From Spiroplasma alleghenense (lineage in GTDB: Bacteria > Bacillota_I > Bacilli_A > Mycoplasmatales > Mycoplasmataceae), in the NCBI RefSeq assembly GCF_003363775.1, contig NZ_CP031376.1:558001-622000 (forward strand): a DNA stretch of 64,000 nucleotides. The letters run 5' to 3'. Made by a program: the position numbers and the translations under genes. How positions within the stretch are numbered: the first letter of the stretch is position 1; each line of letters begins with the position of its first letter. Under the pieces are notes generated by a model. The model made no database searches, had not been told where the DNA came from, and saw only the letters and a list, made by a program, of their open reading frames with translations. Of this stretch, positions 13,827 to 19,525 are shown piece by piece.

Positions 13827-15284
13827 TTATGATAATTCTTCAATAAATTTTTTCAATTTTTCTTTAATTGGAGACATTAATAAAATTGTTTCTTCACAAA
13901 TCAATTTATAAGTGCTAAATTTCTTATTATCCCTTGCGAAATCAAGTTTAGTAATTAAATTATTTTCTTTTTCAATTGAATCAAAATTATTCACCAATCT
14001 GTGTTTGATACAGAAACCTACTTTAGCAATTAAGTTTTGATAATTAAGTGCAATGGCAAATATTTGTTCGATTGCGACTTCTGCTTCTAATAGTTCTCAC
14101 TTTTCTAGTGAATTTTTGTATTTTGAAATTAAAGTATATAAAATTTCTGAGTAGCTTGAGAAAAAACCTGAATTATTTCTCATTAAATCCTCGATTTTAT
14201 TAATAAACTTTAAGTCAGCTTCGCTTGTAAATTTTATGTAATCATTTATACTATTTTCTACTTGATCTAGCTTATGGTCTAATGAATTATCAATTAGAGC
14301 GCTATAAGTAACTCTAAATTTTTTGTACATATCATTATTAGTGTTTCCGCCTTTTTCAAACACCTGAATTGCTTTTTTGAAAAAGATCTCACATTTATTT
14401 TTTAGATTGTAGTCTAATGATTCCAATTCGCTAATATCGTTATTTAGATTTACCTCTAATCCATCAACTTTTGTCAAGTCATCTCAATGGTTCTTTTCAT
14501 CCGCCATTCTTTGATTAAAGTTTTTAAAATCACTTATTTTACCATTGTTAGTTAGATCACTTTTTTTATTGCTAAATTTATTTGCTTTTTCTTTTTCTAA
14601 TTCTGATTTTTTAATAATGTCTTCGCTAGTCATCATTTTTTTAGTCGATTTTATAAAATCAGATTTAAATAATTCCAATGGATTTTCTTTTACTTTTGAT
14701 AAAACCTTAAATGAAAATACTACTGTAAATATTGGAATAATTAAGAAAGGTAATACCGAAATGAAGTTTATAGCTATTCTTAAAGAGGTTGAAATACTAG
14801 CGTTTTTTAAAATATTACTCCCTCAAAAAACTACGCCATAGTCATATCCTAATTCTATAGCTTTAGATTGAAAATATGTGTCGATTGCCAGTAATTTTAA
14901 AAATCAAATTAATATAAAAATAAGGCTTATCAAATTTACTGTAATAAGAATTGACAAGAAACTGCTTGATTTTGAAATTGTTTGAGGCAATTCTTTTTCT
15001 AAATTAACATCCATATCAGTCATGCTTTTATCTTTTACATTTATCTTGGTCATTTTGGCTGAAAAAACAATCATCATTATTCCTAGAAATAAAGGAATAA
15101 AAGAATATAGAAAAGAAATGTGTATAAAACTTAAGAAAAGAATTAAAGAATTTATTTTAAATAATTCTGGAGTAGTAAAAATTATAGGTGAAATTAAAAT
15201 TAAAAAAATCCCCTGTAAAATCGAAAGAATAAAAATTGATTTAACAGTTTTATTTTCAAAAGCTCAAATATACTTATTATTCAA
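13827..15284 (-). CDS. Unknown membrane protein with long cytosolic helical tail
   Basis: 485 residues with TTG start at 15284, chosen because AAAAGGGG lies nine bases upstream; in-frame GTG 15293 and TTG 15290 sit too close to that site. Membrane segments lie at about 15-35, 45-70, 110-135 and 165-195. The second half (about 200-485) is soluble, helical and Lys/Glu-rich, with no family recognised. It is flanked by coaE and an unknown soluble gene in the same direction. TGA codons at Trp positions break it into fragments if the standard code is used. Confidence 0.72.
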
Positions 15285-15320
15285 GTTCAACACCCCTTTT
15301 CTTAATTATAAACTATTTTT

Positions 15321-16358
15321 CTAATTTTTATTAGTTAAATCTTCCAATGCAATTTTAATTCCTTTAATACTAATCGCAAAATTAAACATTTGTATTTGTT
15401 CTTTATTTAGTAATAATGGCTTGAAAATGAATTTATTTCTTTCGCCTCGATTTTCTGCATCTAAAATAACTCTATGGTTTGGATGCAAAATGCTAGGAAT
15501 TTTTTCAATATTAATTGAATTATTTTGAATATAATCAAATAATGGTCTAAACTCTCCCTTTCCTGGTCCTAAATTGATAAATCCTATTGCCAAATCTGGA
15601 TTTATGATCATGATTGATAATAGCGCCATTTGTGATTCGTTATCAACGAAGTTACCAATCATTTGGTTATTTAGCAAGAAATTCTCTTTTTCAAATTCTG
15701 AAATTTTAAAAATTTTCATAAAATTATTATTTACAATATGGTGAAAATATATTTCAATATAAGTGAAGTCTTGATTCTCAAAATCTTCTGCCTTAATATG
15801 AATTATTTTGTCTTCTTCACTACCTAGACTTTGACCTTCGTATCTATCAACATATTTTTTTAAATAAGCAAAAAGTCTGTTTGTAAATAATAAATCGTAT
15901 AATTCAAAAAGAATATAATTTAAAATTAATAACAAATTATGCTTCGTATCATCATTCATTTCTTTTGTCAAAATGTCTAGAAAACAATAAATTTCATCAC
16001 TTGCATCATCTCTAAAACGGTAGTCCCCATTTAAAATGCTAATTAGAAAAAAGAAATAACGTAAAAATAATACATCAAAACCGTTTAATTCTGGATTTTT
16101 CTTTCCTTCAATTTTCTCCTCTATGATAAAACGAGCTTCTTGAGAAATTTTATTAAATTGATTCATGACTTCTTCAATATCGAAACTATCATCTGATTCA
16201 AATAATACTTTTATTAAAGGGTTATTATCCAAATTTATTCGATACTTTTTATTTGTATGAAAATCTAAATAGGTAAAGCTATCTTCGTTTAACCACTGTT
16301 TAATGAAATCATTTGAATATATTAATGCTGAAGTGACTTTTTTAATTTTTTTCTCCAT
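15321..16358 (-). CDS. Unknown soluble protein
   Basis: 345 residues, acidic, with no signal peptide or membrane segment. The N-terminal part is Asp/Glu-rich and helical. The C-terminal third is beta-rich with M-I-I-N-P-D-L-A-I-G-F-I-N and a conserved-looking H-P-N-H-R-V-I-L-D. The general layout recalls DUF4238 proteins, but I cannot support that beyond a resemblance. It begins 20 bases after a small DUF4258-like gene and shares its promoter, so the two probably act together. GGAG sits about eight bases before the ATG. Confidence 0.65.
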   Translation of the reverse strand: MEKKIKKVTSALIYSNDFIKQWLNEDSFTYLDFHTNKKYRINLDNNPLIKVLFESDDSFDIEEVMNQFNKISQEARFIIEEKIEGKKNPELNGFDVLFLRYFFFLISILNGDYRFRDDASDEIYCFLDILTKEMNDDTKHNLLLILNYILFELYDLLFTNRLFAYLKKYVDRYEGQSLGSEEDKIIHIKAEDFENQDFTYIEIYFHHIVNNNFMKIFKISEFEKENFLLNNQMIGNFVDNESQMALLSIMIINPDLAIGFINLGPGKGEFRPLFDYIQNNSINIEKIPSILHPNHRVILDAENRGERNKFIFKPLLLNKEQIQMFNFAISIKGIKIALEDLTNKN

Positions 16359-16378
16359 AAAAATTCTCCTTATTTAAA

Positions 16379-16660
16379 TTATAGATCTTTATCTATGACC
16401 TCTAATTGTTTTGCGACCGACATTTTTGTGACTGTTATTATCAAATTTTGCAACTTATTTATAACAAAAAATATTTCTGTTTTTCCTACCCTAATATAAA
16501 TATGGTTAGTAGTATGAAATTCATAAGTTGATTTATCAATCAATTTCATACAATGCTCTTTTGCTTCAAACATATTTTCTTTATTTAAATTTAAACGCTC
16601 ACAAGCCCTTTGCAAGCCATGGTCCGTAAATACATAATTATGTTTGAAATAGTAACTCAT
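16379..16660 (-). CDS. Small DUF4258-like protein, possibly RelE-fold
   Basis: 93 residues. It begins with F-T-D-H-G-L-Q-R-A-C-E-R-L, matching the H-x-x-x-R-x-x-E-R start of DUF4258 and related RelE-fold proteins. Alternating beta strands follow (H-I-Y-I-R-V-G-K-T-E-I-F-F-V-I, then L-I-I-T-V-T-K-M). Several such proteins are toxins of two-gene modules. Whether this one is a toxin is unknown, and its downstream partner is far larger than a usual antitoxin. AGAGG is six bases before the ATG, and a TATAAT lies only about 16 bases upstream. Confidence 0.6.
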   Translation of the reverse strand: MSYYFKHNYVFTDHGLQRACERLNLNKENMFEAKEHCMKLIDKSTYEFHTTNHIYIRVGKTEIFFVINKLQNLIITVTKMSVAKQLEVIDKDL

Positions 16661-16755: not shown

Positions 16756-18222
16756 TTAAATTATTATGGTATTTTTAAAGCTATTATATAACTTGCTATT
16801 TACACCATATTGGTTTTTATATATTTCCAATTGTGATTCAGAATCAAATAGATATGATTCTATAATATTTTCAATTCCTGAATCATAAAGCGCCATTACT
16901 GCAGTTGATGAAGCTGTCGGGATGATTCTAAATTCCTTATCGTCAACTTTATCAAAAGCTTTAGCATATAAATAAATTTCTAATGGTATTTCTTGCTTTA
17001 TAATTTCGATTTTTTCAACTCCTAGTTTTTTTGACTCTTTAATTAAATTTTCAATATTTTTTTCACTTTCTCTTGGATGAGGCTTAAACCAAATTGTAAA
17101 ATCATCGCTTCCATGATTTTCTTTTAAATAATCACTAATAGTTTTTATTGCTTCGGCACTTTTTTTTACGGTGATACCTTCCCCCATTTTATTTCCGCTG
17201 TAAACAAAATTTAAATTACTTTTGGGTTTTGGAAAAACATCTTCTGTTAATTTAAAAACTTCTTTAAAAATTTTCAAACCATCTTTATCATACCCTTGTT
17301 GACTTCAATTCGATATAGCATCGTTTAACCCAGCACTTGTCGAAGAGTATGTATTTCTAATTTTTCAAAATTCTGCTTCATCATAAAATTGAACGTCACT
17401 AATTGATCAAGAATTAATATACCTAACCCCATAGTTATTTTTTTCCGTAACTAATGGAAAAAAAGTGTTTGTATACTTTTTAAAATTTGATTTTTTGTCA
17501 TAATTTCCTTCAAAAATTGAAACGACCTCTAATTTTGTTTTTTCAAAATTATCATTTGAAAGATATTTTAAATTTTCAAATAAATTTATTGAGAATGTGT
17601 CATGAGCTGTACCATCAGTCATTAATGTTAAAAATTCAACTTTATCCATTACGCTTGCCAAGTTGGTCAATGATTTTGAAGATACATTGGAACTCATAGC
17701 GTAATCATCAACAAATAAATTTATTTTTTTTATTTTATCATCGCGTTTTTGCAATTCTTCTAATGCTGAATTAATGATAAAAGGTTTTATCTCCTCGTTT
17801 GAATTTTTCAAATACTCTATGTGAACATTTGAAAAATTTTGACTCATTGCCTCTATTTTCATGCTATTTTTACCTAATGGTCCATCTGGATTCATTTGAT
17901 CACTAAGATAGATTACTATTTGTCTGTCAGGAAACATTAGAGCTTCACTGATTGCTGAAACAAAAGTCTGTACACCAATCGCTGCTCCTGCTCTGGAAAT
18001 ATAATATAGGGTTCCAGTATTTAAACTTAATTCGTTTTGTTTTTTAACCGCGTTTAAATAATTTTTTATGCCGTTGTGGTCGTCTTCTCCGATTACTTCT
18101 GGAGTAAAATTATATCTTAGATTTTCATCTACCAACTTTAGATTCATTTGACATGAAATTACAGCAAGTGATGATGTAGATAATATTGATACAGATGCTA
18201 AAATACTTAATATTTTTTTCAT
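16756..18222 (-). CDS. Lipoprotein with GT80 sialyltransferase-like body
   Basis: 488 residues. A lipoprotein signal ends at L-A-V-I-S-C (Cys24), so the protein should be anchored outside the cell. The body resembles GT80 bacterial sialyltransferases as I recall them. There is a T-D-G at 202-204 where the family has Y-D-D-G, then F-V-Y-S-G-N-K, then W-F-K-P-H-P-R-E with the HP motif at 382-383, and A-S-S-T at 437-440 for the SS motif, in the expected order and spacing. If active it would transfer a sugar to surface or host glycans; donor and acceptor are unknown. One Asp of the DDG motif is Thr. It follows dinB by 13 bases at the end of a ten-gene run. Confidence 0.62.
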
Positions 18223-18235
18223 TTCTTTACTTCTT

Positions 18236-19525
18236 TCATTTATTTTTTACTTGTTCATTTGAGATGTGAACATCATCATTTGTTAAAAATTTTGATTGAG
18301 AAATATTTTTATCAAGTTTGCTCTTTAATTTGTCAGCAGTAAATACTTTTTCTGAATTAAGAGAAAAATTTATATCAAAGGCTACTTGTTCTAAATCGTT
18401 TTTTCTCTCCCGACTTTTCAAATTTTCAAAATCTATTTGTTTGAAACCTTCAATTTCTGATATTAAATTTGAAGAACGAACACCAATCAGGGAAACCGAT
18501 TCACCCTTTCATAGATAATCAAAACAACTCTGGGCTACTGAAAGTATTTCCTCAAAATTATTTGTATGTCTAATTATTGTTTCTTGGCGAGTAGTTGTCT
18601 TTTTGTGCATTCTCTTATTAAAAATTTCGCCTTTAGTTTTTTCAAATCTTAGTACAATTGCAAATGTTTTGGGTTGCAAAGACCTTTGTTTTAATCTCTT
18701 TGAAATATTTTTGCAAATTCAATAAATTATACTTCTAAGTTCCTCTTCATTACTTGTAGGAAATTCAAGTGTCATTTCATTGCCAATGCTCTTCATTTCA
18801 TTACTTTGAAAAGCCACCTCATCATCGCCCTTACCTAGGGCGTTTAATTTTAATGCTCGACCATTCTTACCAAGCAATGATTCTAAAAAACTTATTTCAG
18901 TATTTGCAATATCCCCAATAGTAAAAATATTATTTTTATTTAAAATTTCTGCAGTAGCAATTCCAATTCCAAACATTTTCCTTATTTCTAAAGGTCAAAT
19001 TAATTGTGGAACTTGATGTGGTAATATTACCATTGTTCCGTAAGGTTTTTTAAACTCAACGGCCGTTTTGGCTAAAAATTTATTAGTGCTAATTCCTATA
19101 GAACAACTTACATTTAATTCGTCCATAATTCTGCTTTTAATTGCTTCTGCCATGTTAGTAACGGATTTAAATTTTTTATATTCTTGTGTCACATCTACAT
19201 AGCATTCATCGATTGAGGCTACTTCCATTTTTTTTGAAAAATTATTGTAAATCAAATCAAAAATTTTGCTAGAAAATTCAATATAAGTTTTAAAATCAGT
19301 TGGTAAAATTATTAAATCCTTTGATATTTTTTTTGCCTGAAAAACTGGCATTCCGGCCTTAATCCCTAGATTTCTAGCGGCATAACTTGCTGCTGTAATA
19401 ATTGATCTACTATTTGGCGAAGCTACACCCACTATTGAATTTAGGGGAAGTTTGTTTTTGGCCATTGAACAAGATGCAAAAAAAGCATCTAAATCAATTA
19501 AAAAAATAACTTTATTATTGTCCAT
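18236..19525 (-). CDS. dinB: DNA polymerase IV, Y-family
   Basis: 429 residues. Catalytic acids are D11 (D-L-D-A-F-F-A-S) and D106/E107 (S-I-D-E-C-Y-V-D), so the palm is intact. A helix-hairpin-helix follows (M-F-G-I-G-I-A-T-A) and then the little-finger domain. The family copies past damaged bases with low fidelity. About 70 Lys-rich residues trail the little finger; no clear clamp-binding motif was picked out. Its start lies one base after the tlyA stop, so the two are translationally close. Confidence 0.93.

Follow-up and report, generated by a model that had tools for sequence, protein, structure and literature searches.

The polysialyltransferases known so far serve capsule synthesis and are encoded beside NeuABC; in UTI89 the polysialyltransferase gene adjoins neuB, neuC and a cytidylyltransferase gene. 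In MhPST (structure 5wcn), E153 is the catalytic base, K289 lies at the cytosine, H291 lies at the phosphate and is also the catalytic acid, E323 lies at the ribose, and S339/T340 lie at the phosphate (PMC5517516). The corresponding residues in PM0188/PmST1, which belongs to GT80, are D141, H311, E338, S355 and S356 (PMC4202792). The enzymes of a third family, GT52, have a CMP site similar to that of MhPST (PMC5517516), and one of them, gonococcal Lst, is exposed on the cell surface and uses CMP-Neu5Ac that is scavenged (PMC4668040). A different kind of sugar transfer occurs in mycoplasmas, where surface proteins are hexosylated from oligosaccharide donors with no nucleotide sugar; the gene responsible is unknown, and conservation of the process extends even to M. 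genitalium and Syn3A (PMC12453214).

The window analyzed here is a stretch of 64,000 nucleotides from Spiroplasma alleghenense (contig NZ_CP031376.1, positions 558,001 to 622,000). It contains a gene for a 488-aa lipoprotein (Table 1). Judged by its sequence, this protein is conserved, surface-anchored and related to the CMP-sugar-dependent sialyltransferases, with PF07388/GT38 as the nearest family by profile. What is unusual about this polysialyltransferase relative is its predicted outward-facing location and the lack of a detected donor pathway. The reading frame contains three TGA codons, which are read as Trp in code 4. The NCBIfam model LP_plasma matched residues 1-24 over its cut-off (E=1.2e-5) with Cys24 as the lipidation site, in agreement with the lipoprotein signal described in the initial annotation. 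The protein carries the lipobox Cys signal of mollicute surface lipoproteins, and this export signal suggests that it is located on the cell surface.

Table 1. Position of the lipoprotein gene and of its signal and active-site motifs in the window.
Feature	Position	Strand	Remarks
Lipoprotein gene with PF07388 domain	16756..18222	minus	488 aa, intact ORF, code 4
Signal peptide, residues 1-24, lipobox VISC, Cys24	18151..18222	minus	LP_plasma match and motif scan
T202-D203-G204, counterpart of the D/E-D/E-G motif; D203 proposed catalytic base	17611..17619	minus	D203/G204 invariant (n=19)
HP motif K380-P-H382-P383-R384-E385	17068..17085	minus	K380, H382 and P383 invariant (n=19); within the PF07388 match
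E415, proposed ribose-binding Glu	16978..16980	minus	invariant (n=19); cf. E323 of MhPST, E338 of PM0188
S438-S439-T440, proposed phosphate-binding S/T-S/T pair	16903..16911	minus	cf. S339/T340 of MhPST, S355/S356 of PM0188

The protein had first been described as a lipoprotein resembling GT80 sialyltransferases. One part of this description, the nucleotide site of the bacterial sialyltransferase type on a lipoprotein, was borne out by the analysis; the assignment to GT80 was not, because the GT80 profile PF11477 is unmatched and PF07388 (alpha-2,8-polysialyltransferase, GT38-type) is matched instead. The superfamily originally named therefore appears to be right and the family label wrong. 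The match to PF07388 covers only residues 353-426 in the C-terminal half (E=1.4e-7; 31.9 bits against a gathering cut-off of 23.3). Six of 12 family members match PF07388 individually, and in one of them (L077) the match extends over residues 279-518, from the region of the D-G motif through the HP and Glu region. The search against GT80 and GT52 that had been suggested as a check gave no match of the 488-aa protein to either PF11477 or PF07922 at E≤10. Furthermore, PF11477 was found in none of 60 genomes of the taxonomic family, and PF07922 in none of the 19 genomes that carry the lipoprotein family (E≤0.1). Membership in GT80 and in GT52 was rejected on these profile results.

The relationship to the polysialyltransferases was also seen when profiles were compared with each other. 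In hhalign, the profile of the mollicute family aligned with that of NeuS, MhPST and Gastranaerophilales proteins at a probability of 92% (E=8.4e-7) over the C-terminal nucleotide-binding half; the control with a reversed profile gave 0.1%. The N-terminal half of the family revealed no profile homology in hhalign beyond the D-G motif. Searches of the sequences of solved structures, done with the 488-aa protein alone and with family profiles, gave no significant relative. AlphaFold was run twice without a usable alignment and returned a mean pLDDT of 37 and 42 (about 40); in one of the Foldseek lists for these models 5wcn (MhPST) ranked fourth, at E=0.03 and a TM of 0.16, which is not significant, and with models of this quality the lists do not count as evidence. 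We infer the GT-B fold of the lipoprotein from its sequence.

The 488-aa protein, family alignments and PF07388 were used as queries, and relatives came to light in further genera and families of the Mycoplasmatales. Clear members of this divergent surface family have a patchy distribution and occur in about 20 of 320 genomes of the order. The alignment comprised 19 intact members including the 488-aa query, to which the others are 13-72% identical. In spite of this diversity D203, G204, K380, H382, P383 and E415, and only these among 401 well-occupied columns, are invariant. The 12 closer members all have S439 and T440; the S/T-S/T pair is visible in the remaining seven as well, though it was shifted by the aligner. 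When E. coli NeuS, MhPST and two Gastranaerophilales proteins were aligned on their own, 19 columns proved to be invariant, and these include the equivalents E164, G165, K285, H287, P288, E321 and S337 (NeuS numbering). The invariant set of the mollicute family, together with the S/T-S/T pair, matches the catalytic base and the CMP-binding and phosphate-binding residues of MhPST. The HP, SS and D-G motifs that had been pointed out earlier are indeed present in the 488-aa ORF. Since the D-G motif, K-x-H-P and E415 are the sole invariant columns among 19 surface homologues of low identity, they are not due to chance.

A comparison with the individual enzymes leads to the same residues, and the motifs are most like those of MhPST. 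The KPHPRE of the 488-aa protein resembles the KLHPKE or KPHPKE of GT38 enzymes (MhPST, E. coli K1-type NeuS), and the stretch FIK-LHPKE of MhPST with K289 and H291 corresponds to K380-PHPRE-385. E152-E153-G of MhPST corresponds to T202-D203-G204, with xEGTGT in GT38 and xDGTA in the mollicute protein. An HP motif with a Lys two residues upstream, a ribose Glu and an S/T-S/T pair, as in GT38, are all present, and the C-terminal half can be aligned at the profile level. In PmST1/PM0188 the counterparts of D203, H382, E415, S439 and T440 are D141, H311, E338, S355 and S356, but the GT80 profile does not match the mollicute protein. All the known active-site residues of bacterial polysialyltransferases are kept in the 488-aa protein except for one helper acid.

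This exception is the first acid of the D/E-D/E-G motif. The initial annotation had noticed that one acid of a Y-D-D-G motif is replaced by Thr, and this is correct (T202); but the position is occupied by T, S or A in all 19 members. In MhPST it is the second acid that acts as base; the first acid supports the loop, and losing it cost about 300-fold (PMC5517516). The replacement lowers the confidence in activity. Because it is found across the whole family it is no sign of decay or of a defect in the 488-aa copy, and it points to a changed loop, not to a dead copy. The two acids of the GT38 motif are not found in the 488-aa protein (T202-D203-G204), and for this reason we do not claim strict membership in GT38. 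The mollicute proteins further differ from GT38 in that they are exported and anchored on the outside and have a divergent N-terminal half.

An export signal is present in all 19 aligned members. Twelve of them have a lipobox, four combine a signal peptide with a C-terminal transmembrane anchor, and three have an N-terminal hydrophobic segment only. The fact that all members have an export signal but use three kinds of anchor means that outward display persists even as the mode of anchoring varies. The family is under strong purifying selection, as judged from the two closest pairs (dN/dS 0.11-0.13): dN/dS is 0.11 for the homologues L008/L009 and about 0.13 for the 488-aa gene and its closest congener L006, a pair in which dS is near saturation. 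In one relative the gene has been lost; a decayed pseudogene copy with stops and a frameshift is found in genome G046 (L011:1501-2793).

The lipoprotein gene begins 4 bases downstream of the stop codon of a gene for DNA polymerase IV (18227-19525). Upstream of the latter is a gene for a TlyA-like methyltransferase, and farther upstream dxs. The orthologues in two congeners (L006, 70%; L007, 54%) are found in the same order, with the Pol IV gene upstream and a 345-aa gene downstream. The neighbors of the gene in its own genus are housekeeping genes, which we counted against a function as transferase. Below the lipoprotein gene are three minus-strand genes for proteins of 488, 345 and 93 aa (13827-16660) without a Pfam match; the position of the 345-aa gene is kept in both congeners.

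The GT38 enzymes work in capsule synthesis with NeuABC partners, in contrast to the mollicute family, for which no donor pathway was detected. NeuB was absent from all ten carriers tested, including this genome. Hits to PF02348 in the 19 carriers were all below the cut-off except for one in G300. This NeuA-like hit is IspD when read by eye, and the only such hit in the present genome is IspD according to Pfam. Hence a recognizable CMP-sugar synthetase was not found in the carriers (PF02348, n=19; two hits checked, both IspD). The earlier remark that the window contains no CMP-sialic acid genes can be extended to the whole genome, which has no NeuB and whose sole PF02348 hit is IspD. NanE is over the cut-off in three of 19 carriers, not including this genome, and no sialidase profile was over the cut-off. 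Since donor synthesis is apparently missing, the cell would have to obtain any CMP-sugar from its surroundings, and the 488-aa protein probably works on sugars taken from the host. A point against such a source is that free CMP-sialic acid is scarce outside cells, especially in arthropods.

In the carrier G031 a PTS gene overlaps the NanE gene beside an RpiR-type regulator (L113:13874-16329), about 4-5 kb from the family member. A functional link between NanE and this member was dropped, because NanE is part of an amino-sugar PTS operon and genes for a DNA methyltransferase and an ATPase lie between the two.

It is an even call whether the 488-aa protein is a lipid-anchored, outward-facing enzyme of the superfamily of CMP-sugar-dependent GT-B sialyltransferases, which would transfer a scavenged CMP-activated sugar at the cell surface. 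The C-terminal half of such an enzyme would bind a CMP-activated acidic sugar, with contacts of K380 to the cytosine, of E415 to the ribose and of H382 and S439/T440 to the phosphate. D203 in the N-terminal half would deprotonate the acceptor hydroxyl, leading to an inverting transfer, and H382 would stabilize the CMP leaving group. As the cell is apparently unable to make CMP-sialic acid, the enzyme would scavenge its donor from the host, like the surface-exposed Lst of gonococci. The acceptor would be the surface glycans of the bacterium itself or those of the host where the two are in contact. The activity, the donor and the acceptor of the lipoprotein are all what we infer here. A broader and more tentative proposal, which we consider somewhat doubtful, is that the proteins form an undescribed mollicute family of cell-surface Leloir-type CMP-sugar transferases, which would use host-scavenged donors and alter their own or host sialylation without a donor pathway. 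A literature search on polysialyltransferase together with Mollicutes found nothing.

The family-wide loss of the first acid, the extracellular location and the failure to find donor synthesis genes in the carriers tested would also suit a surface protein that binds CMP or a sugar, i.e. an adhesin or scavenging receptor, in which the nucleotide pocket of a polysialyltransferase is kept and transfer is lost. However, D203, the catalytic base, is as invariant as the CMP-binding set although the mere binding of CMP does not require it, and we consider a binding protein unlikely. A second alternative to surface transfer from a scavenged CMP-sugar is a CMP-dependent trans-sialylation or sialidase-like enzyme, which in the presence of CMP would strip sialic acid from host glycans in the reverse reaction and pass it to other acceptors. 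Such an enzyme needs no ready-made CMP-sialic acid; this would explain the absence of donor genes and also that of a classical sialidase over the cut-off. Trans-sialidase, sialidase and CMP-sialic acid hydrolase activities have been reported for some enzymes of GT80 (PMC4202792). The mollicute family, however, resembles GT38 and not the GT80 enzymes for which these side activities are documented, and the supply of extracellular CMP is uncertain; this explanation is quite improbable. We give equally little credence to a different CMP-releasing GT-B enzyme whose donor is CMP- or CDP-linked but not CMP-sialic acid, for example CMP-Kdo or a CDP-polyol: the HP motif is common to the beta-Kdo transferases (PMC5517516) and the contacts of the invariant residues are with CMP and the acceptor rather than with the sugar of the donor, but the closest curated profile is the polysialyltransferase family PF07388 and the carriers have no recognized CMP-sugar synthetase. 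A true GT80 sialyltransferase, as originally proposed, would have the same order of motifs (H-to-E spacing of 33 against 27 and E-to-S spacing of 24 against 17 in PM0188), but with PF07388 matched in place of PF11477 it is extremely improbable.

With respect to a surface transferase that uses scavenged CMP-sugars, gonococcal Lst is a surface-exposed bacterial sialyltransferase with a scavenged donor, as we propose for the mollicute protein. It differs in that its profile PF07922 is unmatched by the mollicute protein and in that Lst is located in the outer membrane of a Gram-negative bacterium with LOS as acceptor. The hexosylation of mycoplasma surface proteins has in common with the proposed reaction that sugar is transferred on the outside of a wall-less cell. 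The mollicute family was rejected as the hexosyltransferase, since hexosylation works without a nucleotide sugar and its conservation is much wider (PMC12453214); the family is too patchy for a general hexosylation enzyme. It nevertheless adds specific candidates to the question of which genes are responsible for surface glycosylation in mycoplasmas. An outward-facing, lipid-anchored relative of the polysialyltransferases whose catalytic residues are conserved, in cells with no donor synthesis detected, would make the editing of surface glycans with host CMP-sugars testable in wall-less bacteria.

Searches of plasmid and viral collections gave no relative of the mollicute family. A first scan of genome contigs found none either, and a second found only a distant locus in Gastranaerophilales. 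This locus, from a gut MAG (L068:7170-11868), contains three adjacent genes of the PF07388 type. One of them is split, and the D-E-G motif is intact in both complete copies. Within the mollicutes, the member in G170 is in a 738-aa frame that has a long additional region at the N-terminus and remains open where the locus ends (L089:1-2217). The member in G123 is split over two frames (L115:7173-8891). After it come glycosyltransferase-2-like, UDP-galactopyranose mutase-like and GalE-like genes (named by eye), a set that resembles the galactan capsule loci of mycoplasmas.
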